A stretch of 64,000 bases of DNA from Acholoe squamosa (Eukaryota; Annelida; Polychaeta; Phyllodocida; Polynoidae). The stretch covers positions 29,646,733 through 29,710,732 of the forward strand of contig OX439044.1 of the NCBI GenBank assembly GCA_949317995.1, written 5' to 3'. Of this stretch, positions 8,458 through 55,406 are shown piece by piece. The notes under the pieces are model-generated. The model did not search any database and was not told the DNA's origin. It saw nothing but the letters and a program-made list of their open reading frames with translations. Each line of letters starts with the position of its first letter. The first letter of the stretch is position 1. A program made the position numbers and the translations under genes.

Positions 8458-8523
8458 ATGACACGCCCATGACAGAGGAGACGGTCCTGTCCATGTCTTC
8501 GTCTTTAGTTGGACTCAATCCAG
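8458..8523 (+). CDS. TMEM268-like exon A (first recognised exon)
   Basis: Acceptor TTTTGTGGATTTTCAG ends at 8457 and donor CAG|GTAGGT follows 8523. The open frame reads DTPMTEETVLSMSSSLVGLN, a polar N-terminal tail before the conserved part. Two nucleotides complete a codon begun in an upstream exon, and one is carried into the next exon. An in-frame ATG at 8469-8471 could be the initiator if the upstream exon is non-coding; otherwise the start codon lies further 5'. Confidence 0.7.
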
Positions 8524-11500
8524 GTAGGTGCAAGAATGTATACAAATTTATATCATTGTTTGATTGTTTGTTTACTCTTCTTTTTTGTTCCATTCCCTTT
8601 CAGTTTTTTTTATATATATAAAGGTAGACTTCTCAGTCCCTCCTTTCCAAGTTCGATGTGTCGTATTACATGTATTCCATTCACCCGGCATGTCCCTAAC
8701 CCTGCTATGTATCTACCAAGTTAGATCTATATGGGTCAATCCACTGAAAGTGGGCACTTGTCCATGGTAGAGGGTCATTTTTAAAAACTAAGAATTAGAT
8801 CATGAACCTTAATTGTTTTGATAGCCCTATATCTTGGCTCTTAGGAAAGTTCATTCAAGTCACTAACTCCCAAGCGGTCAGTTTTTATTGCAAATATTCA
8901 AAATTATGAAAATGTAATGGGTGTGAGCAAAATGAATTCTTCTCTACATCACAGAAATATTTGTCAGAACTACATGATTTTCAGTTAGGATATTTGACAA
9001 AATGTCCCAAAGACATACTATGAAGAAAATAGGAAAAAAAGATGGATATTTACAATACATAAGGAAATAATATAAATGTAATGGGCGTGAGCGTAATGGG
9101 CATGAGCGAAACAACTTTCCCAGGCTTCAGACAGCCACTCAGCAATATAACCTCACCCAGAATTAATCTAGGCAATATAAATAATCTAAGAATACTTATA
9201 GGATGCATTTGGAATGCATCAAGCCTGCCAACATGCTTGTAGTGCATTTTACTCATGCCCATTATGCTCAGGCCCATTACTCTCACGCCCATTACATCTG
9301 TCAGTTAACCCCTCTTTTTGGCATAACCAAGGCATGTAGAGACTCTAGTCTTTTTTTAAAATGACTTATTAACAATAGATCTTCAAGTTAGGCTGGTTGA
9401 AAGAAAGAAGACTATGATAGTATTTGTCCTGGATGGATAAATTTGAATGTAATGGGCGTGAGCAAAATGGACTTGAAAATACTTGAATATGTGCCACACA
9501 GTCATGCCTGCAAGTAGTTTTGTTCCATTCCCTTTCAGTTTTTTATATATATACAAAGGTAGACTTCTCAGTCCCTCCTTTCCAAGTTCGATGTGTCGTA
9601 TTACATGTATTCCATTCACCCGGCATGTCCCTAACCCTGCTATGTATCTACCAAGTTAGATCTATATAGTACACGCCGAACTGGACCTGTTTCTGGTGAT
9701 ATGCACTGTATAAAATGTTGAAAAGATGGGGACAAGCTAGTTCCTGGAACTCGATGTTTTCCATAGACAATCCTGGCACGTCATCTCAATTGAGTTTATT
9801 AAGACCCAGCAAGATCCAAAATGGTAGACGTGCAGAGATGATGGCATGAGAAAGATAAGTGTTAGTACAGACAACTCATCAATCTATACAGTGGATAGTT
9901 CAGGATGAAACCACATCATCATCATAGTATAAAAAATATGAGCTGTATATAATTATATTCTCTTTCCAGTAGCTTTCAAAGCATGTTTTAAAACCATAGA
10001 AACTCTAACTCTGCCACTGACAGTGATAGATGTGCATGTGTGAGAAGCAGACATTCCAGCGTCCCTCTGGGACCCTATGGGTCTCACAATTTTCCTTCCA
10101 AAGAGTCCCAGAGAAACCAAAGGTCAACTGGTCGGGGGCGGCTTCCTTGGGCCGGACGTAAAAGCCTCAAGCATAGCGGAAACGGGAGAGCTGTGTCTGA
10201 AGAATCCCAATCAGATATTCAGTGTTGAACAGGAAAGGCTGGGTCCAAAGTGGGAGAAAGAGGAGGAAGTGAGTGAGGAATGGCGCTGGGCAGCTTTCTA
10301 TGTATCCTGCATAACCAAGTTTGTTTTCTATCAAAGTCTGTGCAGAATTATAGTTGGCTGAGATTTTGAATGAGGAAGTCATTCCTTAGGAAGCCTTCTT
10401 ACTGCCTCTTTCCTGCCTCTTTTCCCTCCTCTCCATTCATTTCCTCTGCCTTCCCTCCCATCCCTTCCCCTTTCCTGCCACTCCCCACTCCCACCGAGCA
10501 TCCCTAGCCCATTTTAGTATAGGGTCGTTATCACTCCTTTTCTATTCCCTATATGTATCTGATACACATATGCAGGGCACTGAGACACACATAGTTTTCC
10601 CAATGCGGATATGACCTTAGCTCTTTAAATGGCATTTAAACAACCATCCTCACCCAACACACTCACTTCCATTCGTTCTTCATTTACCCCACCCCCTCCA
10701 ATTTACGCCTCCCTCCCTCCATTCCTCCTTATCACTGTCTCTTACTTTCTTTTTATTCCACTGTCTGTTCCATGTTCTATATGAATTTAACACATACTAG
10801 TGACAGGGACACACCAAGTAAGATCAGTATAGGTATTCTATAAGACAAGATTGGACATAATTTAACTTGATGTGTTACCCAAGTCCCTTGCTAGGACCTT
10901 GTTCTGCATGATATTCTGTGATAGAGGAGAATTATAGTAGAAACACAAACAGACGTCGTGTTTGCCTGATAATCATATGGTTGGACGAACCAGCAGGCCA
11001 GACTTATTTCTTGGTTCAGTAACCAACCCATGGTCGGAAAGGACCAGGAACTCAGGAGCACAGTCAATGTTATATTATGTTCGACCTAGGGGGTGAGCTA
11101 AAAGTTAACCATTTAACTAAAAGCGACTGTTCCTTAGTGTTTAATGGGGTAACTCGTTAGCGCTGCATGGTACAATGTAGTTTTAAAAAAGATACCTAGC
11201 AGGGCGCTCCAAGAAAGAGCAGAGGTGTTACGGTCAGTGCTACCTTAGTACATTACGACGGCCAATGAACACGGAGCATTCAGGCATCTTGCCTTCTATC
11301 AGGACGAAAGTACCAGTTTCTGTGTGTACACCAATATAGGTAGTTTTGTAAAGGGGGCAAGGGGGGGAGATGGCATAATCCTTATTATCGGGCTTCTCTA
11401 CAGATACTCGTCTGTAGATGGCTCTGAATTAGCTGTGTTGGCTTCCACACTGGCCTCTGACAGAGTCGACTCTTGAGTCGTCTTAATAACTGCTATGCTG

Positions 11501-14500
11501 CATCTTCCCTTTGCCCATTCCTCACAGGCCCTTCATGTTTCTTCAATTCCAGTGATCCCCTATGGCAAGTGTTTGCAAAGAACCTAGAAGCACAGGACTT
11601 GACTTGAACCATTGCATCACTATCCTAGCCCTCCAACTAAGGCGCTGCAAAAGGTCTGCCTTCCTTGGTGGGATATAAGGAGAGTATAGTTTGCATTATA
11701 ATGCTCCTATCCCACTACTCAAACACGCTCATCCGTCTTCTGGACTTTATCTGGCACCAACAATACTGCCATCTGGATCCCAGTTGTCTAGGCAAACAAA
11801 GCCTTGCCAAATTCCTATCCAATACCATCGTTGCCGCCGTCTTCCTTCTCTAAAGGCAAACGGTCCCCTTTTAAGGCACCTTTTAAGTCCTTCTTGGCAT
11901 GTATTGTAGGAGACAAACATCCTAGGGTAGGTACCGTCTGTCTGACCAAAGTTTGTTTCCTCCAGGCTCCTCTTGTTGACCTTAAGGTCTGCCCCCTATA
12001 TATGATGTGAAAAGATTACATGTTGCCGGCTCAGGAACCAATTCCTGAGTAATTTTAGGTCTGGTCATCCACCTAAGGGTTTCTCCCTCTTATCTACACC
12101 GTTTCATACTAGGGCTGGGTCTGTGGACTAGCGATTCTGGCCAAACTGGGCATTAAAAAGAGGAAAATGTCAACACATCAAAAACTTCATATTTTGTTCA
12201 AAGATGAGATGAGTAGCCATTTGACGCATTCCCTACAATGTAAGTCCATAGAGAGTGTCTGCACGGTGTAGATTTATCTGTAGAATCCTCATAATCATCT
12301 GTTAACGGCGTTGTACATCTCAGCTAGCCTATATAAATCAGACCAAGTTTTGTTGGTATGTTCAATTCACTTGTAAGGACTTCCAGCTAATTCGTTCCCA
12401 AATAAAGCATTTGAATGGTACTGGTATACTGACACTGCTTCAGGCTATATTGAACGCAGGTAGTTCAAATCCTAGTCTACAATGTTATCCTACACACACA
12501 GGAGAAATTTCATCCTCAGAAGGGGGGATTTTGCCAGTGATCTCAATGTCAGCCTAATATACAAGCCTATTACTAAATAAAACTTTCTTAATTAATGACT
12601 AAATCAATGGATTATCAAGAATTGCAAAACCAGACAAATCACTTTGAATAGTTAAACGAATATCAAATGCCTATTTTGGTCACAGTTTTCTAATTCCACC
12701 ATTTTGAAACGACTTGATACTGATATTTATCATTTTTGATGATTCCCGTTGTCCAGTGAGTTTCAGCATTGTATTAAAATTGGATTACCTATTAGATCTT
12801 AAAGTTTATAATTCAATCATTCGCAATCGACGATTTCCAGTGTTCTCTTGACAACAAATGTGCGATGACATTTTACCATTACCGTTGGTGCAGGATGAAA
12901 TTTATATACGCCACAATGACACTTTGGGTCAAAATCAAAAATGACTAGATGACGTTTCTATTCCACACAATACTACATAACATATAGCAGTGAAATGCTC
13001 TTTAGAACATAAAACATTATATATCATGTAAATCAGCCTTGTAAAGCTATATTGTATAGTACTGGGAACCAAGGGCATACAGCATACATTTATCTAACAA
13101 TTAATTTGTCTATTACCAATTGTCTTTACAGGTTTACAGAGCGGCCATCTTCTGCATAGTATCAAATCTAAGTGTCTGTGCTGTGGTCGAGAACTGGTTG
13201 ATCCTAGCGAGGTGCCAGATGAGCTAATAGCGCATGGTGTTCAGGTGAGATAACTCAGTTAGCTCTATCAAAACTTTGGTAGATCCTAAAACCCATCATG
13301 TTACAAGGGCATAAAGATCATAACAGCTGTAGTAGACTGGGCAGTTGTAGTAGACTGGACCATGCAATTACCAGTTCAATCTCTGTTAATCCTATGAATG
13401 ACTGGATCACTAACCATCAGGGAACAGAAGTATCTAGCATAAATAATGTACTCCCTGTGGCTATTAAATTTAAACTTGCATTAATTCAAATTGACAACAT
13501 TGTGTTGGATTAACTCTTAAAGTCCCTTTTCTGGTACAATCTTTTCAGATTCCGCCCGAAGAATATTGCCAAGCCATTCGTCAACTTATGTGTGAAAGCA
13601 AGTTCCGTTGCCATATTTGGTGCTACAATATGCCAGTTGCCATGGTGTTCTTTACCTTATTTCTCGGCCTCTGCCTAGCCATTATCCCCGTCATAGAAAC
13701 CAAATACATGTTTATTGGCACAGGTGAGAATGTTTATATCTCAGTTTCCAAAATACACCAGTGAGATAATTATATTGATTTTTGAATGTTGATCTGATGA
13801 ATTGTATCAAATGTTGATTAATACATTTCACAATGTAACACGCTGTTTTCATTTCAACACTTAAATTGTGATATTACACTGCTTTTTGTCTAGTAAGATT
13901 ATATTGTCGGACAGAGCCTTTATTGACAATAGACCAAATAAATATTAATCTAAGTTTCCTCCATTATTTATCATTAACAATTGATGTAACTGTCAATTAG
14001 TCTCATAATGTTTTAGTGGGCCTATCTAAAGTTCACATCATATAATCGTGTATTACTAATCAATAATAACATTATAATACAGAATTATCATATTGAAGGA
14101 ATATAAGTAGAAGTCACAAAAAAAATCAAAATGGCTACTTTTGTTTCCGATTTTGGAAACATTCTTGTCTGTTTTGGTCCGACCTTATGATTCTGTTGCT
14201 CATTGTACCTAATACTATGTTCCAATCATGTATCAGTTCAGTGTGTAATACAACATTGTTGTTATCAATATAGATCAGGGTGAACCTATCACCTACACAC
14301 ACCGTCCCGTTTTACTTGTAGACCTTACTCATCCCAGTTTGCCAACCCCTGCCTCTAAGGGGGTATCCGTGCAACCATCCAAAAAACGTGAGTTTAAGGT
14401 TAACTTAATAGACAGCAATAGGCTGTAATTTGATATCAATGTACCCAAAATGCCAGTACTATACCTTAAAATGTCAGTTGCAAAAAAGACTATTCCAAGA

Positions 14501-17500
14501 TTGTGGGGAAAGGGTATTTGCAGTAATTACATGCATTATAAAGTTTGATAGTTCCTGATTTTGATTTTCCCCCATATCATTTTAGTCTGCGAACTGAATT
14601 TATCTCCAAAAGCTGACATTGTTGCATACAATCCCGTTCAGGCCCTTTCTGTCAAACCATATGCATTGCCTTTCTCCGCCACACTCTATAAAAGCTGTAA
14701 GGTTTCTTTCCTCGAGAATTAAAACAAAAAAAAAGAATATTTCACACGGATTGCACAGTGTTCTGTTTTATCAGTGTCATGGCAGTGGTCTCAGTGATAA
14801 AGTCCGTTTGTGGTAATCTTAATCAGTCAGCAAATTGTTCATAGAGTTCATGGAATATAACACTAATGATCATTTTTGGTCTGTTAATGTTACTTTTACC
14901 TTTCATTAATTTTGGTTCTGGTAGTTAATTTGCATAAAGCAGAGCATAAAACTATGCACATATGTAAATGATACTTGCCTGGTGCAGCTGGACTTTGTAA
15001 TTGAATCACATAAGCTTTACAATTAACTTAGAATTATTTATCATACTAAGGGGATCATTTTCTTCTTAGAAGATAAATATGAAAAAAGAATTACAGTATG
15101 GTTGTAAACAGACATCAATAGTGCACAATCGTTCACAATCATGCCCAGGAGCGATACCCTCATAATCAAAGTAATCTTTGCCCCGAGTTATCATTTTTCT
15201 GACGTATTGCCCTAATTTGGTTTTCAGAAACGGGTTTAGAATACGTCCACGGGGCGGTGGTGTGGTTGTGTGTTTTGACTCTCTACATGCTATGTACTCA
15301 TCTGGCGAGACGAAAGGTAAGGGTACATACACTTTCTGCATTAAAAGTCTGCATTCAGAGGTGTTTTATGCCAAATCTACTATGTAAATACTATATGTGT
15401 ATAGTTGGCAGCTAGTTGGTCATAACCTAGATATCCTTTGTTAAGAGATGATTAAATCTTAAGTACACTTATAGATATATATGATAAGACTAAGAGATGA
15501 TTTCGCTGTATAACAAAGAGTATGATCATTGCAGAGAAAAGGGAGTCGTTGCTCTTTTTGAAGTAGTGTGAAAAAGTTGTGTGAGAGTAAACAAACAGAT
15601 AAAGATGATAGAGGAACTCATCTTTGTGACCATTTACCAGTCTTTTCTGGTCACAAAAGACATTACGAGTTAAAAGGGACCAACCTACACTGAGGATACA
15701 TCCTTATGCCCTACTGTCTAAATCTCTATCCAATCCTTCCTAAGGCACCAAACAGCTTAAATTAGGTACTGACCCTAATAGTTAATCATCACAAAGGGAT
15801 GTTCTTTTAGCAAAGCATTAAGTGTTTGATAAAATACCACAGCGGGGCATAGGTTTGTGTCTACTTATGTTAATTAGTTTGTGAACTTTTAGGTAGAATA
15901 CCAGATACCACGGGTGGTCCTTTAAAGTCACACACCAGATTGCCGAGTGTAAAGAAGCGTTTCCTCACAAGTGGAATAGTGTGCTGACTAAGGCATGGCT
16001 TCAAAGCCCCTGTACCTCCTACTCAGGAGCTCTCCTTGATCTGCTTTGTTTTCCCCATTTCAACACATTTAGATTCCGATCACGTACGGATGGAAGCATG
16101 AGGAACGTGCTCTTCTGCTCACCATCAGAATCCCTAGTTTTTTTCCTCGTGGTTTCTTGCCCTCCAGATAATACCAGTTTTAAGTTGTTGTTTTTTTTTG
16201 TGTGAAGGTATTTGAAACTACAGGAGAAAAAGTAGCGACTTTATAGAATTGTTTTAGATGTTTGTTAGCCCAGGCTCAGGGGCTGTGTTCAAATGGTGGT
16301 TTTATTGCCACTTCTGTGAGTGTTTTTACTATGGAATTTCTGAGGAATCTTAGTTGGCCAGGAAAATACTTGGGGTAGCCTTCTGAAGTGGTGTGTCCAC
16401 AGGGCGATAGAATTTGTAACGACAGAATATGTCTATGGCAACGACTTCCATCGTTCATTTCAAATGATAAAAACATTAAACAGGGTAGATATAATGATAA
16501 AAGAAAATAAACAGGGTAGATATCATGGTAGGAAATGGACGAAAGACGTGTAATCATAATCAAAAATGCAAGATAGAAGTGTTTTATCGTCGGAAATGGA
16601 AGATAGAAGTGTTTACCGTCGGAAATGGGCGATAGAATGGGTTGCCGATAAATATTTTGTTCTTTACATATTCAATCACCCTGTGCACACACAGCTTGAT
16701 TTTAAAATTGACCTAAACTGGTATCTCAGCCAATTTTACTGCTATTTGTACACATTCTCCGGTTCCTAGTTCAAATACATTTGGTTTTATCATATTATAA
16801 ACCCTCCCAGACACGCTCGAAAGGTCTATTTTGCTTTACCTCAAATATGAAACTTTGTTTGTAAACCAACAGATTGAGACATCTTTGGCTTCGGAATGAC
16901 TAGTAGGTTCAGGTTAACCTTTTACTGATTAAATAACCACATGATAACATAATTACAAATATTATTCATTCCAACAGGATATTCCACCTGGACCTGCCAT
17001 GTCATCCTTAATCTGGCCCAAGCACTGTGTGGGTTTTCCATGTAGCCTGAGATTTTTTAACAAATGTAATTTATGAGCACACCTTCCCCAGAATCGTATT
17101 ATGAAAATTTCACACGGAATCTAATGAAAATGGATATACCATTACCATCCGGTGTTTCCTTGAAGACGACTGAGAGAGTTTTAATTATTCTGAAAATTCA
17201 ATATGGGGGAGGAAATACGTTAAATTTATTTGCAAAGCTTTCACCATCTTTCCTTTATTTAAGGCACTAGGATGAAATCTGATATAACCTGTGTGTAGAT
17301 AATCACGTTCAGGATCTGACATGGGATGCGAGGACAAGATGGAACACGAGACTAACCTTATTTGTTCATTGCAGAATTCCCAACTTAAGAATAAACTTAA
17401 ACCCCCGTGTATTTATGTAAAAGTACCCACTTTGAAGAGAGATTTGAAAGATATTTGTCTATCTATACTGGGACCATACAGGAAAGGGATTGTAGTATGC

Positions 17501-20500
17501 AAACAGTGTCTATTTGATAGCAGAAACTGTGTACATGTATACCACTAGGGAGGTCAACTTAATAATACAGGATCCTTAATGATAGCACAAACCACAGTAT
17601 TGTTTTAAGTATGGCCTCGCCCCATGGTATACCTTCACCATTCCCCCCTGTGATCTGGACATTGCCATCAGTCTGCCTATACAACCCTGACCCCAAGCAC
17701 AAACCTCACTAAGGATGAATCCAATCTCTATGCATAGCCTGTTAATTCTACATCATGGTGGGCCCTATGGCATGCTACCACACCAGCACAGCTGAGATAA
17801 GGCCTACCACAGACTGGATCCCACTAGATACCATACACCATTACTCAAACAGTATAGAGGTCCAGATTGTCCCAGGCACCCTGCAGTCGACGCTTATCAG
17901 CTCCTCTATGCTGGGACATTAAAGCCACAAGTTGCTTGCAGCAAAGGCAATGGGACAATCAATCTATAGGATGATTTTCCAGCACTGTGTGATTTAAAAC
18001 GTGCTCTTTGGAATTTAGTGAGCCTCAGTGTTCGGTTATTGTACATAATCCTTATCCCTGACATTTCTTTGTTTGGCGAACGACAATTTATGCCAGCTCA
18101 TAGAATGATGCATTTCCTAAACGTTTCTGCCTTCCTCAATCCATCGCTGAAATGAAAAAGGGTCCAAAAGTAGTTTGATGAAGAACAGATATTCACATCA
18201 AACTCTCTGAGGTCTTGCCTCCTGGTTGCTGGCAATGTACCAGCATGCCCATATGGGGAGAAAGAAAAAAACACAGAGGAGAGATAGAGAAAGAAAAGAC
18301 CTTTTTGTAAGCGGAGCGTTCCTGTCCGGAAATGACCCCAGACGCAGGCGCGGCCGGATGTGGACCTGGCACAGTGTCTTCTGGGAGAAGAGCGGAAAGA
18401 GGAGTGCCTTGCCGCGTTGTGAGGTGGCGTGTCAGGTGGCACCAAGGTTAGGAGTAGACTTAATGCTTGCCCTGGCCACCTTTTGCATAAGTCTACTGTA
18501 TACAATTGCATCTCCCCCAATCCTACCTGCTACTTACCTCACAGCAGCGGGCATTGAAATTACATATAATTCTCCTATGCAAAATGCCATTTTTCTTGTG
18601 TTATCTGATGCTCTTTCTGTGGAGTAACAACTACAAGCACTACTTTTCCATACTTACATAGATCATACGAACCACATTCAGGGCTCCCTACTCTCCTGTG
18701 AAATGTCCCCTGGGAATAGTCGTACTGCTATGAATATGGTACAGACAGGAAGAGCATTGATGCTACCTTTTATGCCAAAGCATCTCCACAGAAAACATGG
18801 TTCAAAAGTTTCATCTTTTACTAACGATTAGTTATCATATCAGTGAGCATCTCTTCACAATCAGAGAGATAAGAAATACGAAAAGAAGTAACCGTATACC
18901 AGCCAATAACAGAAGAGACAGGCCATGTTCTAATCCAGAACAATCGATAGAGAATAGGCCAAAAGAGAAATAACAAAACCCTGTAGATTAAATTAGACAT
19001 TGGTATAAGCTTGAATTATAAATGAACTAATTTGTCTGAGTTCCTGTGGTCGACTGACCGGAATTAGGAGAGGCCAGAGCAGTTTGCGCAGGTGCAGATG
19101 CAGGATTAAGGGTCACGACCTTTATCTTGGGTATGACTTGTCTATAATTTATGGGGCTTTTATAACCATTTTGGTGTGTGGTTAAAGCACTGATTGGAAA
19201 ATCAAAGCAATTTTTGTAACAATTATAATTATTGTGACTATATCTTTTAAATATGTAGGTGAGCAAATTATATATAAGCACGGTATTTTGAAAAAAGTAC
19301 AAATGTAACCATCCCTTTTAAGCATGAATCATATTTTAAACTCTAAACACATACGTAGTTTAAAATATATCATGTATCATAGAACTGCATTATACTTGTA
19401 CGATTATGCTGCTTTGCTTCAATCAGTTATCAATGCAGAGGTTCTACTGTGAGCCAGACATTATCATTGGTTATTTATCAGCCATCTCTTCTCTATTCTA
19501 CATTTAAGACAGGTCTGTCTAGACACTTCATAACTAATAAGCTACCTGTTGTGACGTTTTTGGTGACCTTTCTATCCGTTTCATGTATTCAAAATATGCT
19601 AATCATCCATGAGAATCACAAGGAAACAAAAGACAAATTACATAATCATCTAATGCCTCCAAACATGACAGCACAAATATAATGCCTTCACCTCTCCCCA
19701 ATCGAAACCTCGCCCCCACCCCCTTCCAATAAAATCTCTCTATGCCTCTGCAGTAAGGGCAAAAGCAAAAGATAGGTTAAACAATGCCATACGAACCAAT
19801 GTGGATGGGGGCGGTCAATGGAGAGTGCATGGAATGCCTCCAAAGCTTAAGGCATTGTTCCAATGTTTTACCGAAAGCTTTATACTCTATAGCTTTATAA
19901 CCCAAATTATCTACCCCATTTCTTCATCACTGCATTATTTAGACTCCATTTGCGGCGTCTTCCCCTGTAATAAACCAAACAGATTTTCTAAAATGAGGTT
20001 CTTCTTGCACTCCCTCCCATGTTGTGGTCAAGGCGCAGAGGCGTGAACGCCATCTTCTGGAGTACTTTTCCCAAATGCACAGGATTTCATGACTATATTT
20101 TTAACTACTGTTGCCACCACCCGCACCCATTTCCCTGGGTCCTGTGGACCTCTTACAGCACGCATGGACATTCTAATCATTTCCAGTCGCGATCAGTGGG
20201 TATAAATGTATGGTTTAACAGCACTCATTCACGTAATTCTGATGAATCAATCCCTATATGTAAAACACATTCCTTGTGCTTCATATTTTGCAGATGAAGG
20301 ACAAGACATATCGTCGATTATCAGAAGTCAACACAGTATTTATAAAATATAACCTGCTTGTAGGGGTGGAGAACCTTGGACTAGCCGACTGCAACAAATA
20401 CTATGTATCCTTAAACTCAATCAAACAGCTTCAAGAGGGTCTCTTTGAGTGGCTGCAGTGCATGTTTAGGGCCCCTGAAAGTTACGATGTCACAGCTGCT

Positions 20501-23500
20501 TTAACTTAAACCCCTCGAAGTTAGGGGCCTATTAAACTGGTCTCTCATTTAAAGTAGAGAATAGCCCATTGTTATACAAACAGGATTATAACGACCAGCA
20601 TAAACAATTTACCTTAACCTGAAAAAGTTGCACTTTTTCTACTTCGAATTGGGGCCATGTTTGGTAAGTATGCTGTTATTATTATTTACATAGCTTTTCT
20701 ACAAACAATTTCTTCAGAGGTATTTATTTCACTATTACAGGACTACAATATAAATTGAACTTGATTTAACCTCTCCCCCAATAGTCATTTCCAGTGCTAC
20801 CCCTTGGTAAACCCACTTCTGATTAGGACCTCTCATGAGCTAATGGGAATGGGCCAAAAGGTTGAAAAAAGCCAATCCACTGGATAATTGGTTAGGCTGG
20901 AAAGAAAATTTTGAAATAAAACATCCATAACCCCAGTAATTGGCCCTCGACCAACACAAACAGCCAGTTAGGGATAAAAAGCATAATCATACAGACAGTC
21001 TGCAACGTAGTGTCCCCAACTGGTCAGTTATGGCAGGGCCGCCAGATGTCAGTACCCCGTCATCTGGGCACTTATTCTGCAGCCTCGCTCTGGTTATGAC
21101 CCATAAAGTTGGCCGGAAGTCCACATAAGTCAACCATAGCTGATTTACACGGGTCATAATGAATTTGCCTGGACACTGCCGTTGACGTTATGCTCGTCAC
21201 ATCCTGTGTTTAGGCCCATCTGAAATGCCACTCGGCGGCCATTTTGGCAGACCCAGTGGCCATTTTGTTTTTGGAATTGGCACCAGATGCTAATGGGTTC
21301 CGATGCACGCGTTGTGAATGCATCTTGTCAAGATTATTGGAGAAGTTGTGATCTAGATATCGTATCTTCCTGGGTACGGTCTCCCGGGAGACTGTTTCTC
21401 GTGAGCACTTATGTCACGGAACTCTTTTTCCATAAACCAAAACTTTCCTCCACTTTTGTCTTCGGGATTAGCACCACACAATGAAAAGTTCCGATATACG
21501 TATTGTGAATGCATCTTGTCAAGATTATTATAAAAGTTTTAATCGCTATATTTATCTATGCTATACATGGATCTCTTTTACCATTAACCAAAACGTTCCC
21601 TTGGTTATTTCTTTCTTTGTTTTATCTTAACTAGTCTTATCGTACAATCGAAAGAAAAGATTGTATTTGTAGGGGAAACTGGGCTCAGTAAAACGCACCT
21701 TCAGAAAGGGGAAAGAATGTTACCATGTTCATGGTTTTTAATGGTAACGGTCTTCTGGTGACCAAACAAACAAGTTAGACGACAATGCTATCCCTTTGAT
21801 AGTCGTTAGAAGTATGAGGACCTGTCATTCTTTACCATCCAAATGCTCCCTATAAGGAGAGCATAATTTGAACTTTATACAATAGCTTCTCTGGTTGTAA
21901 GAGTGAATCTACACGACATAGATCAGAAACCTTTCTACGAACCAATAATCCTCAGTATATCTATGATTATAAGTGTAACTATGGATTCATCTAAAGCACC
22001 GACTATTAAACAATAATTGCTAGCTGAAGACCTTCAACCACAATGCTTTATATCTTCAATGATCTTCCCACTCCTCTACACAGTAAAAAAGAATGCCCCC
22101 AAAAATACGGTGAATTCCCATTGAAAACTGCTGAGAATCCCCGTACAGTGAACATTAGGAGGGTATCTCAAAAAGATTTGGAATTGATCCTGTCGGAGAT
22201 GATAATTCCAAAATTGAACTCACTGACCTTCTGGAGTGGATTCCCTCTTGTATTGTAAAGAGGGAGTCAGTTATAGGGGTGGTATAGGAGGGGTCCAGTC
22301 TCTTATTTTGCAACTCGACCTATTTCCGTGCAGTTCACTTGTAGCAGAAGTCAAGCAGGGAAGTCTGTTCTTAGGGTGAGAAATGCAGGAGAACTGCAGG
22401 ATCAAATAGTTACGGTGAGAACTGGTTTCCCAATCTTTTTGAGATACCCTCCAGGAGGGTGAAACACTGTTCTCTTGAATAACGGTGAAGCACCTTAAAA
22501 ATTTACGGATTTACCATGCTAAATATAGGGAATTATTTAACAGTGTACACAGCTGGCCCCCAACTGTTGTTGGCTATCTGGTGTGATATCTTTAGCAGAG
22601 CGATTTGGCCGAGCACTTTGAAGCCGAATCCTTAGGTTTCTTTTATTAGAGACTGTTGGCTTCTGACCAAACCTTCAGCGGTCCCCAGGCTTCTCTGTTG
22701 ACAAACCACTTCAGCATGGTGGAATATTTTTGTGGTGGTGGCTAAAGCCTCAAATGTCTAGCTCGAGCACTCAGAGCAGCTCGCCAAATCACGGTCAGGA
22801 AATCCCTTGACCCCTTTTTGGCCCAGTCCTCTCAAAGATCTCAGAATATTGTGAGTGTGCAAAGTAGTCTTCGTGACTAATGGGACCATCCGCCTTCTGT
22901 GGCCGCCTATTCCCCTAAGTGTCCACAAGGCATAGGCTGTAGGAAAGAGGAGAGACCTGTTTAATCATTAACTTTTTTGTGTGCTGAGCAAAATATGGAC
23001 TCATGGACTTGGTATGATGTAGGCTGTACATTAAGTCGATTGCTCTATCCTTTGTAGAAGACTCTTAGGAGGTCCCTGATCTTAGTCTCAATTTTGCATA
23101 GGGTGAATCTTTTAAGATTTCCCGGCCACAGGTCTGTATTTAGGCCAAAACTGTAGACACTGTATGCATGCAGAATGACAGAATCAAGGTGTGTAGCTGC
23201 TAGGGTTATCATATATTGCTTGGATCAGCACTTCAGCTTCAGATAATGCACACTGCTGACTTTGCAAATTGCAAGCAACATTATCCCATCACAGATAATT
23301 AATCACGCCTATTAGGTTTGATATTAGGGACGCATTTTCATAATGAATAATTATAAAATGACAAAAAAAAAGCTCAAAAGTGTCAGGTATGCGGTTGTTT
23401 AGGTGTAATGGGCATGTTCAGCACTCCATTTATCTAGAGGAATATACAAAGACTTTAGTATTGTACAATTAAGTTTGCTGAAGGACGCAAATCCTACCAA

Positions 23501-26500
23501 AAGTTGGTTTATGACAATTTGTCCATGGCTAATTTTCCTACTAGCAAGCTATATTTATACTATTTTGCATGAAACTATTGGAAACAGTTTCAATCCAGGA
23601 TACATCTACTTGTGCTACTATTTGAATCTTCATATTTTACATATCGCATGTCATTTCCAATTTTACTATAAGGCATGCTGAATTAATTTTGAAAAAAAAG
23701 AGCATTTTGAAATGAACTTGAATTTTGAACATAAATGGCTGCTATGTTTTCGGGCTTTAGAAGAATACAAGTTTACTAAAGTTGTAGTTGACATCATATG
23801 AACAGCCGCCTCGTTTTATACCTTTGTCTTCTATAATATCTCTATCATAATGATGCTTAAAATTTAAACGTATATATATCAAAATGAAGGAAACTGATAT
23901 TATTCCTATTGGCATTAAAGCCATCCTTATCCAAATATTGATCTATGATACAATGCACCTTACCCAAATTTTAGTATAACTCTGCTAGAGTGTATTTTGA
24001 CTAAGGTTGAACCCGATTGACTAGTTAATTAACAGGAAGGTGGGTGCTGGTTGTGTTTGCAGGCCTACCTCCAGGAGCTGGTGGATAATCTAGAGGACGT
24101 CAGCCCTTGTTATACCAATCAGGTGCTCTATAGTCACTTAACACTGTAAATTACCTTATTTTCGCCCACTCCCCAAAGCCCTATGGCAATTCGCCATTGC
24201 AAACATACCTTATATCGCTCACTGGTGACCACACCAACGTTCCTTATTTCGCGTCCTGTGTTGGTATCGTGGTTTCAGTTCCCCTCCTTTGATGAAATAG
24301 TAATCATAAGCCATTATGTCAAATAGCTAGAGTTACCTTTCCACTGTTAATTAGCTAATGCTAGATTTTGGTAAGCTTATCAAAGGAAGTTTACGACAGG
24401 CAATTAAGTACGTGCACCACTACCAGCAGCACTATGGTACCTCCTTCCGATCCCACTAGATGTCACTGTCAAGTCACTTCCGGAAGTCCCCACTCTCGCA
24501 GCATCTCAGCATGCTAGAGGGTACTCTACTAGATTCATTAAGACGTTTTCCAATTTACTGTGTGTATTTGTTGAGAAAATTAACCCCATCCTTGCTTAGT
24601 GTTCGGTCTTTAGGAAGAAGGCACTGTCGTGAATTCCCACATTGTTTGGACCACTTTGTTAAGGTATTTAGATTCTGTGCACCGCTTAATTAAGTAATGT
24701 ACACGTAAACCCATGCTACTCCCGTCAAAATTAATGCTTTTCAGCCTAGCTATAGAGGCTGGGACAATGCCAGAATTATCACGAATGGTTATCTCATCCG
24801 TGGCATAGAATCCAGTGCTGGGATAATTTCATGGCGACTCGCTCATAATGAAACTGAGAAGCTCCCATACAGTTTAAGGAGAATATAATGGAGATCTTTA
24901 TGGGAATGCTTAATGGGATTACACTGAAAACCATAAAGGTGTCACAATCCTTCTTGAATTACAAAGTCCGCAACATGAATTCCGATGTAATTTGCCCCTT
25001 AATGTATGGTTTGAAATCGCATATACCAATAACAGTCTATAGAAAGTCTGATAATCCCCCAGTGGTTGCAGGGCGACCATAAAATCCTTATACCCCTGGT
25101 ATTTAAGATCATTGGATTCAATTTTATTATCCGAATACTAGCTTGGCCTTTCTCATAGATATTTATCTATGGCTCTAATTCCCTTGTTGATGATTATGTC
25201 TACACGCATGTGAAATGCAGACTGTAATTTTACAAGCACGTGACTGGTGTTTTCCTATAGCTTACACTAATCTAAGTAATGCCATGATGCTAAGTACCCC
25301 CCCCCCCCAAAAAAAAAAAAAAAAAAAAGAAGCCTAAATTAAGTCAACTCTCACAGCGTGTGGCATGAGTAGGACCTACAGTTTCTTAAAGTTCCTTGAG
25401 ACTAAGCATAATCTACTTCAGTAGGGCTCATGCAAATTAGAAAGTCATCTTACTTAAAATGACCTTTAATGATTACCTAATGGAATCCCTTAAGAAAATA
25501 AATAGGCTATTTTAAATAAATCACGTACACACGTAAATTCCATAGACTGTTTGAGCTGTCGAATCGCACATTTATTGTAATCTTATGCGTGGTAAACAGG
25601 CCCACATTGTATAAAAGCTTGCACACATAATGTTGTAACATTTGTTCAACCAATGCAACGCGCATATATACCTCTGTTTACTTTTTTACCTTGAGACTAA
25701 ATAGTGGTACCTGTAAATAAACAGCACCCTAGACGTTATCAAATCAGCACCATCCTATACTTTCACATAATGTAATCATATCATTAAGTTTCGCAGTATA
25801 GTAGCGGACGTTTGCACATCTGCAGTATTTAATCTTCTAATTGTAGCGTGAATGCAATACTTTTGTAAGGGTTGATTAGTAGATTGCGTAGTATATAAGT
25901 TAAGTAAACTTACCTAATCAAATAATGGAAAATGGTGAATTTCTCAGAACTTTATTTAAAAGCAATTATAGAAATCTTCACATTGCTATATCCTACAACA
26001 GAAATAGATTAGCCTTTCCGCTCATTCATGTAGCACTAATATTTTATCACTGGTCAGTGTAAATTAAAAGAACTCTAATATGATTCTAAATACAACTGAC
26101 AATCAGTAAGAAACTGAATGTAATTAAATTCATAGGAATTAGGAACACACACCTCTAGCAAATACATCCCTCGTATTCACCCATAAAACACTTCCTCCTA
26201 ACATCAACCACCCTTCCTATATCGTCCACATACCCATACACATTCCCAACAAACCTCTGTTCATTAAGTTTCCATCTTGATCCTCCTCCAGGCCTACCTC
26301 CAGGAGTTGTTGGTGAACCTGGAGGAGTGCACACCCTGCTACAGCAACCAGGCCATGGACAACGATGCCCAGCTGGAGGATCCAGACGACCCTGAGGGCT
26401 GCAACCAGGAGGCCTCTGCCTCAGACAGAATGAATGTATTAGACCAGAATAATATTACCAACGTCTCTATGCAGGTAAGGGAGCATGGCTGTGTCAGGGG

Positions 26501-26895
26501 TGGAGGTTGGTATATCTCTTGATTTTTGTTCTGTAGGAATTATGACGAACGATGAATAATGATGCATTTATTATGAGTCTAGAAACATTTGTATGTGAGA
26601 GGATGTCAAGAAGTTCAAATGTAGGATGTTATTACATAATGCACACCATTATCTAAGCCTCTAAACCTCACTATAAATGGGCATTACTTCTCAGCAAAGG
26701 ATGATAAATCACCATTGTCAATTTCCCCCGACATTTCAGACGCACGCAGAGGACCTTCTGCTCGATCACAGTGGAGAGTACCTCAATATGCTCATCACTA
26801 AGAAACTGGACCGTCCACGCAAACAGCGTCATGTCAAGGGAGCCTACTGCCTCTGTCAGTATGTAGAACAACGTGTGTACAAGATGGTCGTCTGA
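8458..26895 (+). CDS. TMEM268-like two-pass membrane protein (whole gene, 5' end missing)
   Basis: Reconstructed by splicing eight segments: 8458-8523, 13132-13244, 13549-13723, 15228-15316, 20294-20404, 20628-20663, 26292-26474 and 26740-26895. A ninth, alternative exon lies at 24063-24122. All junctions are GT-AG and the phases match (1-0-1-0-0-0-0). The model gives 308 residues from the first complete codon to the stop, against about 340 for vertebrate TMEM268. Matches, judged from memory of the human protein, run in order: GLQSGHLL region; GVQIPPEEY (human GIQVPADQY); a first membrane segment at residues 88-108; a second at 124-143; LLVGVENL (human LLGVTDTV); FFYFEL (human FVYFDL); AYLQEL; and a C-terminal EDLLLDHSGEYLNMLI (human RQLLAVFGGYYIRLLV). 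The family (DUF4481, as I recall) has no established biochemical role. The encoded protein is probably a membrane protein with both ends on one side. Introns range from 223 nt to about 5.6 kb (if 24063-24122 is skipped). Confidence 0.85.
8583..8732 (+). repeat. 150-bp direct repeat, copy 1
   Basis: Almost identical to 9518-9667; the only clear differences are in the T-run and TA-run near the start. The pair flanks about 785 bp. The ends lack TG...CA and I see no clear target duplication, so an LTR pair is unlikely. A recent segmental duplication or a transposon end repeat fits better. Confidence 0.85.
9076..9297. repeat. foldback element with repeated ATGGGCGTGAGC termini
   Basis: The left end holds two tandem copies of TAATGGGCGTGAGCG-like sequence (9076-9110). 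The right end (about 9247-9297) holds the same motifs inverted, with CTCACGCCCATTACAT. Single copies of the motif also occur at about 8917 and 9451, within the same interval between the 150-bp direct repeats. Confidence 0.65.
9518..9667 (+). repeat. 150-bp direct repeat, copy 2
   Basis: Second copy of the repeat at 8583-8732, same orientation and same length. The very low divergence suggests a recent event or gene conversion. Confidence 0.85.
10077..10290 (+). pseudogene. possible acyl-CoA synthetase-like fragment
   Basis: The open frame contains MGLTIF, then GQLVGGGFLGPDVKA, then ETGELCLKNPNQIF. The order and spacing resemble the core of AMP-dependent acyl-CoA synthetases (YGLTE, then GSVG.LLP..EAK, then ETGELCLKGPN.M). 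The match is short, the YGLTE motif is imperfect and there is no adjacent continuation, so this could be a decayed retrocopy or coincidence. It is intronic to the TMEM268-like gene. Confidence 0.25.
10384..10500. repeat. polypyrimidine tract
   Basis: About 115 nt almost entirely C and T on the plus strand, intronic. It is low-complexity, and no exon with a matching frame follows it. Confidence 0.6.
13132..13244 (+). CDS. TMEM268-like exon B
   Basis: Acceptor AATTGTCTTTACAG and donor CAG|GTGAGA. Enters in phase 1 and leaves in phase 0, encoding 37 full codons. The protein begins GLQSGHLLHSIKSKCLCCGR and ends AHGVQ. It lines up with the human segment leading into GIQVPADQY. A CLCC cysteine cluster is present that I do not recall from the human protein. 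Confidence 0.85.
13549..13723 (+). CDS. TMEM268-like exon C (first membrane segment)
   Basis: Acceptor AATCTTTTCAG and donor CAG|GTGAGA; 58 codons plus one nucleotide. Starts IPPEEYCQAIRQLMCE, matching the conserved VPADQYRSLAE-like helix of the family. It continues into a hydrophobic stretch PVAMVFFTLFLGLCLAIIPV, the first transmembrane segment. The preceding intron, 13245-13548, is short (304 nt). Confidence 0.9.
13724..15227 (+). other. intron of the TMEM268-like gene
   Basis: AT-rich, without recognisable repeats. An exon-like stretch near 14275-14388 with a GTGAGT downstream was examined and rejected because the frame required by the flanking exons is closed. Confidence 0.6.
15228..15316 (+). 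CDS. TMEM268-like exon D (second membrane segment)
   Basis: Acceptor TTTGGTTTTCAG and donor AAG|GTAAGG. Completes the split codon and encodes ETGLEYVHGAVVWLCVLTLY followed by MLCTHLARRK. The hydrophobic core is the second transmembrane segment and ends in a basic stop-transfer cluster (RRK), as in the human protein before its KKANTNTD segment. Phase 1 in, phase 0 out. Confidence 0.9.
15317..20293 (+). other. intron of the TMEM268-like gene
   Basis: About 5 kb with no supported gene. Contains a small tandem repeat at about 16565-16640 (unit close to AAATGGAAGATAGAAGTGTT) and a GC-richer patch around 18.3-18.45 kb with accidental open frames on both strands. Confidence 0.6.
16565..16640. repeat. 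short imperfect tandem repeat
   Basis: About two and a half copies of a roughly 31-bp unit containing GATAGAAGTGTT and CGTCGGAAATGG. Intronic, no coding value. Confidence 0.55.
20294..20404 (+). CDS. TMEM268-like exon E
   Basis: Acceptor CTTCATATTTTGCAG, 37 codons, donor TAT|GTATCC (weak). Begins MKDKTYRRLSEVNTVFIKYN and continues NLLVGVENLGLADCNKYY. It aligns with the human cytoplasmic stretch [28 protein letters not shown]. The frame stays open to 20509, but the continuation does not resemble the family. Alignment with exon F, which supplies the next conserved residues, fixes the donor at 20404. Confidence 0.8.
20628..20663 (+). CDS. TMEM268-like microexon F (12 codons)
   Basis: Encodes LHFFYFELGPCL between AAAAAG (acceptor, weak pyrimidine tract) and a strong donor GTAAGT at 20664. 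The motif FFYFEL..C matches human FVYFDLENC, which must lie between exon E and the AYLQEL exon. It is in frame on both sides (phase 0). An upstream acceptor at 20598 would introduce a stop, so 20628 is the only workable start. Confidence 0.7.
21263..21600. repeat. 191-bp tandem duplication
   Basis: Two diverged units beginning at 21263 and 21454. Shared landmarks include GTTCCGAT, TTGTGAATGCATCTTGTC, AAGATTATT and CATAAACCAAAAC/CATTAACCAAAAC. Confidence 0.65.
22104..22500. repeat. imperfect inverted repeat, foldback element candidate
   Basis: The core arms GGAGGGTATCTCAAAAAGAT (22159-22178) and its complement ending at 22453 are nearly perfect. Weaker complementarity, including ACGGTGAA motifs, extends outward on both sides. 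Ends are not sharply defined. Confidence 0.5.
24063..24122 (+). CDS. TMEM268-like alternative exon G (duplicate of the start of exon H)
   Basis: Acceptor GGTTGTGTTTGCAG and donor CAG|GTGCTC bound exactly 20 codons: AYLQELVDNLEDVSPCYTNQ. Fourteen of 20 residues equal the first 20 of exon H. Of the 13 codons that differ, seven differ only synonymously, which suggests the copy has been kept under protein-level constraint. Phase 0 at both ends, so it can be included before H, used in place of H, or skipped without breaking the frame. Used in place of H it would remove the acidic linker. Whether it is transcribed cannot be told from DNA. Confidence 0.65.
24123..26291 (+). other. intron between exons G and H
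   Basis: AT-rich. Contains a homopolymer pair (C run then A run, about 25298-25329) and otherwise no feature. A palindromic ACTTCCGGAAGT (Ets-like) lies near 24477. Confidence 0.6.
25298..25329. repeat. poly-C / poly-A tract
   Basis: A run of about a dozen C followed directly by about twenty A. It may be the tail of an old retroposed element on this strand, but nothing recognisable precedes it. Confidence 0.6.
26292..26474 (+). CDS. TMEM268-like exon H (with acidic linker)
   Basis: Acceptor CTTGATCCTCCTCCAG, 61 codons, donor CAG|GTAAGG, phase 0/0. Begins AYLQELLVNLEECTPCYSNQ, the counterpart of exon G. It reads on without interruption into an acidic, low-complexity linker containing DNDAQLEDPDDPEGCNQEA and ending NITNVSMQ. 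The human protein also has a variable, acidic linker here before its C-terminal domain. Exon H is the ancestral-type exon because it carries both parts. Confidence 0.9.
26740..26895 (+). CDS. TMEM268-like terminal exon I
   Basis: Acceptor TTTCCCCCGACATTTCAG and 51 codons ending VYKMVV, then TGA at 26893-26895. Begins THAEDLLLDHSGEYLNMLIT and includes KGAYCLCQYVEQRVY. This matches the human C-terminus (QLLAVFGGYYIRLLV ... CPCQLIEAYIL) in length and pattern, including the cysteine pair separated by one residue. Confidence 0.9.
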   Translation, partial: THAEDLLLDHSGEYLNMLITKKLDRPRKQRHVKGAYCLCQYVEQRVYKMVV

Positions 26896-54316: not shown

Positions 54317-55324
54317 TTATCCAGGGCCAGGGGTTTTACCACTAGCCTGAGCAGTCCCAGCTTTGATGCATGGACAGAGAGTCTTCAGTGTGGCTCTTCG
54401 GAATGCTGGCAGAAGTATGAAGTATACAAATGGATTTGCCACTGAATTAAATGCACTTAACCACAAGCCAATCAACTGCACCACTGTATTCTTGATGTAA
54501 GAAACAAGACCCAAACGCCCAAGCATGTAGTACCATACATCCCAGCTCATCGAGAGGATAAAAATGATTGTAACTGCTATGGCTGTTTTGGTCATCTGAG
54601 ATGTAGCACTGTTGACAAGATTTGATTCACCAAAGCTTGAGTTGTCACGACGAGCGATGAGAGTGGCCAGAACCTTTCCATAAAGAATGCAAAAGAGGAT
54701 AAAGGGGACTAGCCAGTAAATGACAAATACATACTGACCATAGATGAAGAAGAACCATTCCATAGCAGGTCCCGGAACGAGGTACTCGCTCACACAGCGC
54801 GCATTGCTCATCCTGACTTGGATGAAGCATCCAAGATTGGAACCAATACCAATTGCATAGGCAATACCAATGAGCCGTCTTATACGCCCAATTGTGAGAT
54901 CAACATGCTTGAAGGGATGACAGATGGCCATGAATCGTTCATAGCCTACCATGACTAGGTTCCATACAGAACTTAATACCCATATCCAGTAGAGAAACTG
55001 TCCATGCCATACCTGGCAGATGATGCTGTCCAGAATAGGATTCCCTGTGTAAAACATGGGTTTCTGGAGCACCATGACAGTCCCAACAGCGCATACCATG
55101 AAGTCAACAAAGGCCTGGTTACGCAGGAGCAGGAGATAGCCAGGAGCAAAAATCTCACTTGCTTCTTTCAGAATGAAAACTGTGGCTAAGTTGGCAAGTG
55201 CACCAATACCAGTCATGACATACTGACTCATTGAGATTATGGTTCTAACGTCAATACCAGAGTCAGCCTGCATGGCATCAGTTGTGTTCATGTCCATATC
55301 TACCATCCCGGATAGGTTAGCCAT
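54317..55324 (-). CDS. intronless class A (rhodopsin-family) G protein-coupled receptor
   Basis: 335 residues in one exon, start ATG at 55322-55324 (in-frame stop seven codons upstream) and stop TAA at 54317-54319. Seven hydrophobic segments follow an N-terminus with two N-glycosylation sites (N3-L-S, N13-T-T). Landmarks: N45 in TM1, D74 in TM2, C103 at the top of TM3 pairing with C177 in loop 2, E129-R130-F131 in place of DRY, P207 in TM5, NPFVY at 297-301, and CPC at 317-319 as a likely palmitoylation site ahead of a short tail. TM6 reads SMSWDVWYY: the toggle-switch tryptophan is kept but the following CWxP proline is replaced by valine. It should be a plasma-membrane receptor signalling through G proteins. 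The ligand cannot be assigned; the pattern looks like peptide- or amine-type orphan receptors expanded in invertebrates. Confidence 0.9.
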   Translation of the reverse strand: MANLSGMVDMDMNTTDAMQADSGIDVRTIISMSQYVMTGIGALANLATVFILKEASEIFAPGYLLLLRNQAFVDFMVCAVGTVMVLQKPMFYTGNPILDSIICQVWHGQFLYWIWVLSSVWNLVMVGYERFMAICHPFKHVDLTIGRIRRLIGIAYAIGIGSNLGCFIQVRMSNARCVSEYLVPGPAMEWFFFIYGQYVFVIYWLVPFILFCILYGKVLATLIARRDNSSFGESNLVNSATSQMTKTAIAVTIIFILSMSWDVWYYMLGRLGLVSYIKNTVVQLIGLWLSAFNSVANPFVYFILLPAFRRATLKTLCPCIKAGTAQASGKTPGPG

Positions 55325-55406
55325 TGTCAAGTCACAATGTTAAAAGGTCTCAATTAGGTTAAAGCGATTAATCTCAGTCAGTTGAACTGGTTGCTCAGCA
55401 TTTCAT
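55325..55406 (-). promoter_or_regulatory. probable 5' UTR start of the GPCR coding exon
   Basis: On the minus strand a good acceptor, TTAGCTTTCTTTAGCAG, ends at 55407. The coding exon may therefore begin at 55406 and be joined to an upstream non-coding exon. The leader holds an ATG opening a three-codon upstream frame (ATG AAA TGC TGA), which might dampen translation. Confidence 0.3.

Follow-up and report, generated by a model that had tools for sequence, protein, structure and literature searches.

The window analyzed here is a stretch of 64,000 nucleotides from the polychaete Acholoe squamosa (contig OX439044.1, positions 29,646,733 to 29,710,732), and its forward strand carries a multi-exon gene of the TMEM268 family (PF14800/DUF4481). 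The identification, already made in the sequence-only reading, is borne out by the profile score of the fullest gene model: 74.7 bits against a gathering cut-off of 25 bits. Elsewhere in the window we observed a minisatellite-like tract at 281-784, in which the minus-strand reading gives short repeated units (GWSED, GQRT and similar); a repeat at 8509-8767 and 9477-9666 with near-identical translations (SFPSSMCRITCIPFTRHVPNPAMYLPS); and, on the minus strand at 54317-55339, an uninterrupted frame of 340 codons for a rhodopsin-like GPCR (PF00001, 70 bits), for which the best of the 60 solved chains listed, those of opioid, galanin, MCH and rhodopsin receptors, score no more than 38 bits. The parts of the TMEM268 gene that were modeled are as follows:

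13549-13723, forward strand: exon D, probable first transmembrane segment; open frame, phase 0 in and 1 out, donor CAG/GTGAGA
15228-15316, forward strand: exon E, probable second transmembrane segment; phase 1 in and 0 out, donor AAG/GTAAGG
20294-20404, forward strand: exon F, MKDKTYRRLSEVN..GLADCNKYY; residues 7-28 fall on profile positions 128-149
20405-20627, forward strand: probable U12-type (minor) intron of 223 nt; GTATCCTT at 20405-20412, CCTTAAC at 20612-20618, AG at 20626-20627
20628-20663, forward strand: microexon M of 36 nt, LHFFYFELGPCL, placed by profile scores; donor TTG/GTAAGT
24063-24122, forward strand: exon G, a copy of the first 20 codons of H, as judged by base and codon comparison, BLAST, dN/dS and simulation
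26292-26474, forward strand: exon H, 20 G-like codons followed by a 41-codon acidic linker; donor CAG/GTAAGG
26740-26892, forward strand: terminal coding exon I, the C-terminal part of DUF4481; stop codon at 26893-26895

Exon I by itself reaches 26.8 bits on the family profile (cut-off 25), and the human TMEM268 sequence used for comparison scores 460.4 bits on the same profile. Exon D, hydrophobic by eye only, contains IPPEEY..MFIGT, which we align with what we take to be the human VPADQY..MFALG, and E, with a 17-residue hydropathy mean of 2.01, is the one phase-compatible hydrophobic AG..GT candidate between D and F among the matches listed, at the thresholds used. Upstream of D no exons were found, and Pfam scans reading straight through 13001-22902 in three frames were empty. 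A candidate N-terminus near 12708, covering profile positions 1-33, was rejected, as its 76.7 bits were equaled by one hand-typed scramble of unchecked composition. Searches of viral contigs, with the M-less H form and with an alignment, and of genome contigs, with the alignment, yielded no confirmed relative.

Early gene models without M missed about 20-28 residues in the interval from F to H; adding M, which carries the conserved FYF.L..C block of the TMEM268 family, lifts the profile score from 48.5 to 74.3 bits, a value that none of six shuffled versions of M reached (55.7-70.1 bits). We take its LHFFYFELGPCL to be the equivalent of the human LWFVYFDLENCV, with the stretch from KTYRRL in F through the end of M aligning gap-free with what we take to be the human NTDLRL..ENCV. 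Several ways of joining F to the downstream exons were tried and rejected: F ending at NLL (CTT/GTAGGG; 38.1 bits); F spliced directly to H (43.5 bits); F reading through to VSLN..ESYD, whose 51.9 bits lie within the 44.2-52.6 of five shuffles of that 28-residue stretch, so that it acts merely as a spacer; and G as the filler of an M-less model (47.7 bits, with two of five shuffles higher in a range of 41.9-55.0).

The intron between F and M is probably removed by the minor spliceosome. U12-type introns are marked by a 5' site of the form RTATCCTT and a CCTTRAC branch site near the 3' AG, and the intron at 20405-20627 has both the 5' site (20405-20412) and the branch site-to-AG stretch (20612-20627). 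Taken singly, these motifs occur in the window no more often than chance predicts (4 matches against 6.84 expected and 12 against 11.5); hence, the assignment rests on both sitting exactly at exon borders that were defined by the alignment. Literature searches for C9orf91 with U12 and for TMEM268 with minor intron were empty, and one for TMEM268 with minor spliceosome or U12-type gave no TMEM268 case among the matches listed. Both the microexon and this probable minor-spliceosome intron matter to annotators, as automatic gene finders could easily overlook them.

In the intron between M and G we noted, at 22158-22452, inverted repeats of 26 nt that are 96% complementary and 243 nt apart; these may represent a short non-autonomous DNA element, and no clear target-site duplication was seen around them by eye. 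The sequence-only reading had described G as a copy of the first 20 codons of H, and its counts were reproduced in full: G and the 5' 60 nt of H (26292-26351) have the same base at 44 of 60 positions and the same residue at 14 of 20, and 13 codons differ, seven of them synonymously only. The first five codons are identical, with all 16 changes falling in codons 6-20, and the shared motif is AYLQEL..NLE...PCY.NQ. The H copy is the only strong match of G in the window (blastn E 1.6e-5 over 35 nt; tblastn E 2e-7 with all 20 residues aligned), the next-best tblastn match having an E of 0.33. The likeness is thus not due to chance. The 200-nt flanks of the two exons show no similarity above shuffles (fractions of shuffles reaching the score 0.27, 0.27 and 0.45), and hence the likeness ends at the AG and GT of G. 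G and H are therefore neighboring in-phase exons of a tandem duplication, and since G (60 nt) corresponds to only the first 60 of the 183 nt of H, it is a partial rather than a whole-exon duplication. What H has beyond the copied part is the acidic linker, whose 41 residues (10 D/E and a single K/R) agree with the earlier description.

A dN/dS calculation, proposed earlier as a check, gave a dN of 0.19 and a dS of 1.57 (NG86), i.e., a ratio of about 0.12, with a codon pattern indicative of constraint: changes at codon positions 1, 2 and 3 number 3, 4 and 9, respectively (one-sided P 0.050). When 16 random changes were placed in one copy, at least 14 residues were kept without a stop in 0.5% of trials. 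In a fairer model, conditioned on 16 differences and with G neutral and H constrained, a match of at least 14 of 20 without a stop arose in 2.0-3.4% of runs; with both copies constrained the same outcome appeared in 81% (omega 0.1), 44% (0.2) and 23% (0.3). Since so good a match is rare under a neutral G, G is probably an old exon retained by selection; given just 60 nt, we regard this as moderate rather than strong evidence for constraint.

Both exons are entered and left in phase 0, and the joined forms F-M-G-I, F-M-H-I and F-M-G-H-I all translate without a stop, as had been anticipated for the different combinations of G and H; skipping of G and H together is, by arithmetic, also frame-preserving. 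The splice sites of the two exons appear to be U2-type. The claim that G has gained a donor of its own fared unevenly: a GT does sit precisely where the similarity ends, but the site around it (CAG/GTGCTC) is weak. It has a log-odds score of 0.95, the lowest among the five modeled U2-type donors (the others scoring 7.1, 7.37, 4.25 and 7.96), with positions +4, +5 and +6 all away from consensus. Of the plus-strand GTs of the window, 7.3% equal or beat it in log-odds scoring and 17.8% in a second, percentage-sum scoring. The acceptor of G is good, within the top 1.4% of AGs. A weak donor of this kind would suit a cassette exon under regulation as well as one that is being lost. At the protein level, the helix ascribed to H is predicted at residues 2-11 by a structural model of H alone, at low confidence (mean pLDDT 51.6).

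The family profile offers a further angle on how the two copies might be used. M-G-H-I scores 74.7 bits, M-G-I 60.2 and M-H-I 59.9, the latter two each still above the 25-bit cut-off, and the form with neither exon 49.6. Replacing G by shuffled versions gave 71.3 and 65.5 bits in the G+H form, retaining 11.4 and 5.6 bits of the 14.8-bit gain, and 57.3 and 52.5 in M-G-I. With a shorter N-terminus, G+H reaches 74.3 bits and H alone 63.4, and shuffled G followed by H falls to 62.9, 65.3 and 66.3, i.e., −0.5 to 2.9 of the 10.9 bits gained are retained. Across both versions of the N-terminus none of five G shuffles in the G+H form reached the real score; as shuffled G keeps some of the bits, the gain is partly one of length alone. 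On the shorter N-terminus, the first 20 residues of H (H20) used twice score 73.0 and H20 followed by G 73.9, while shuffling H20 behind G costs 1.4-5.9 bits (71.7, 68.4 and 72.9 in three shuffles). Thus, the first slot favors a sequence of the G/H type and the second mainly length. The first eleven residues of either G or H, both of which follow M in phase 0, reach up to profile position 181 and align with what we take to be the corresponding eleven-residue human segment. The distance between the conserved block and the C-terminal block is 81 residues with G+H, 61 with H alone and 20 with G alone, and we take the same blocks to be 76 residues apart in human TMEM268. This suggests that a length typical of the family goes with joint use of both copies rather than with swapping, with the caveat that linker length may simply differ among species. 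Being best by profile and close to the human length, joint inclusion is favored, without this amounting to proof.

Hence, we tentatively propose that G is a true, old tandem duplicate under purifying selection, most likely a cassette exon spliced together with H; this is the leading reading, held at somewhat less than even confidence. The duplication itself, its boundaries, the open frame, the phase symmetry, the pattern of constraint and the better profile fit of G+H are what the DNA displays; that G is spliced, that it is spliced jointly with H and that this affects the protein we infer from them. Transcripts using G would be spliced M-G-H-I, and the resulting protein would bear two consecutive AYLQEL..NLE...PCY.NQ copies, lengthening a helix segment directly after the LHFFYFELGPCL block and ahead of the acidic linker and the C-terminal domain. 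The weak donor of G would make its inclusion partial or regulated, with the remaining transcripts being M-H-I. We counted against this proposal the same weak donor, the partly length-driven profile gain, the shuffles that outscored G in the M-less model, the possible variation of linker length among species and the exchangeability of G and H20 in the profile.

The most serious competitor, which we consider possible if rather unlikely, is that G is a duplicate in decay or seldom used, now essentially unspliced, with its conservation a relic of past use or an effect of its shortness. The donor, off consensus at +4, +5 and +6, and the modest constraint test on 60 nt (P 0.02-0.034) are compatible with decay, which is harder to reconcile with an open frame, a good acceptor, a dN/dS of about 0.12, and an AG and a GT intact at the exact limits of similarity. 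A product truncated within the intron is very improbable: were the weak donor ignored, G would read on for 8 more codons to an in-frame TAA (24147-24149) as an alternative terminal exon, and the product would lack both the linker and the C-terminal domain, but the first AATAAA/ATTAAA 3' of G lies at 25497, about 1.35 kb past the stop, and the halt of the similarity to H at the GT is what would be expected if the donor mattered.

There is also the arrangement suggested by the sequence-only reading, in which G toggles with H. Dual inclusion of tandem exons can be barred by a frameshift, an intron too short for both sites to be used, a mismatch of U2 and U12 sites or competing RNA stems. At this locus, dual inclusion and double skipping preserve the frame, the G-H intron of 2169 nt is too long for steric exclusion and the sites are of one apparent type. 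Candidate arms pairing the M-G intron with the G-H intron (22210/25105, 23769/25894 and 23829/25952) are imperfect, at 73-83% complementarity in an uncontrolled comparison, and the latter two pairs cross instead of nesting; no clear competing stems were found between these introns, and Rfam at gathering scores had zero matches over the window. With the frame kept, a long intron and no clear stems, nothing found enforces exclusivity. Mutually exclusive use (M-G-I or M-H-I, the G form being without the 41-residue acidic linker) is accordingly an unlikely reading, albeit one with points to commend it: the exons are homologous, tandem and in phase; G replaces H20 in the profile without loss when the linker is kept (61.8 against 59.9 bits for intact H, one shuffled H20 giving 53.2); and exclusivity is a well-known fate of tandem duplicates (PMC9741552). 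Beyond the splicing considerations, the parts to be swapped are unequal (20 against 61 residues), and M-G-I would be 56 residues shorter over this stretch than what we take to be the human protein. The more elaborate version, a regulated swap of G for H switching the acidic linker on and off, with the short form keeping the C-terminal domain near the membrane, is less likely still; as a toggle, it goes unsupported by a frame that tolerates both exons, a profile that prefers G+H and a weak G donor.

Tandem duplication of exons is known to generate protein variants, and in the terms of Exonize (PMC12343006), G and H could be exclusive, flexible or obligate. The 236 annotated human events of mutually exclusive tandem duplicated exons (PMC9741552) resemble G/H in being homologous neighbors within one gene with largely conservative changes; in contrast, G and H are unequal, G copying one third of H, and their exclusivity is putative. 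The nearest parallel to two retained copies of a helix exon appears to be that of the COE/EBF transcription factors, where the vertebrate H2d-H2a helix repeat arose via tandem exon duplication (PMC2394523). There, as is proposed for G/H, a short exon encoding a helix has a tandem copy and the protein carries the two; however, that case belongs to another gene family and draws on a metazoan-wide comparison as against a single sequence for G/H (PMC2394523).

Human TMEM268 (C9orf91) shares with the Acholoe squamosa gene the family profile (PF14800 DUF4481), the FYF.L..C block and the C-terminal domain (PMC6748091). Its available description records two mRNAs, distinguished at the protein level by a single Gln after Ile71, and, unlike the annelid gene, mentions no duplicated exon (PMC6748091). 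Among the literature matches listed, none reports TMEM268 jointly with exon duplication or a splice-controlled spacer in the family. Integrin beta4 binding is assigned to human residues 104-342 (PMC6748091) and CD11b binding to residues 1-152 (PMC11169502); G and H are C-terminal of the membrane segments, and an effect of their splicing on such binding is conceivable. G/H would add a case of tandem exons in a membrane protein family that has received little study: with joint inclusion of the copies it would be a helix repeat like that of the COE/EBF factors, and with exclusive use a switch of linker length.
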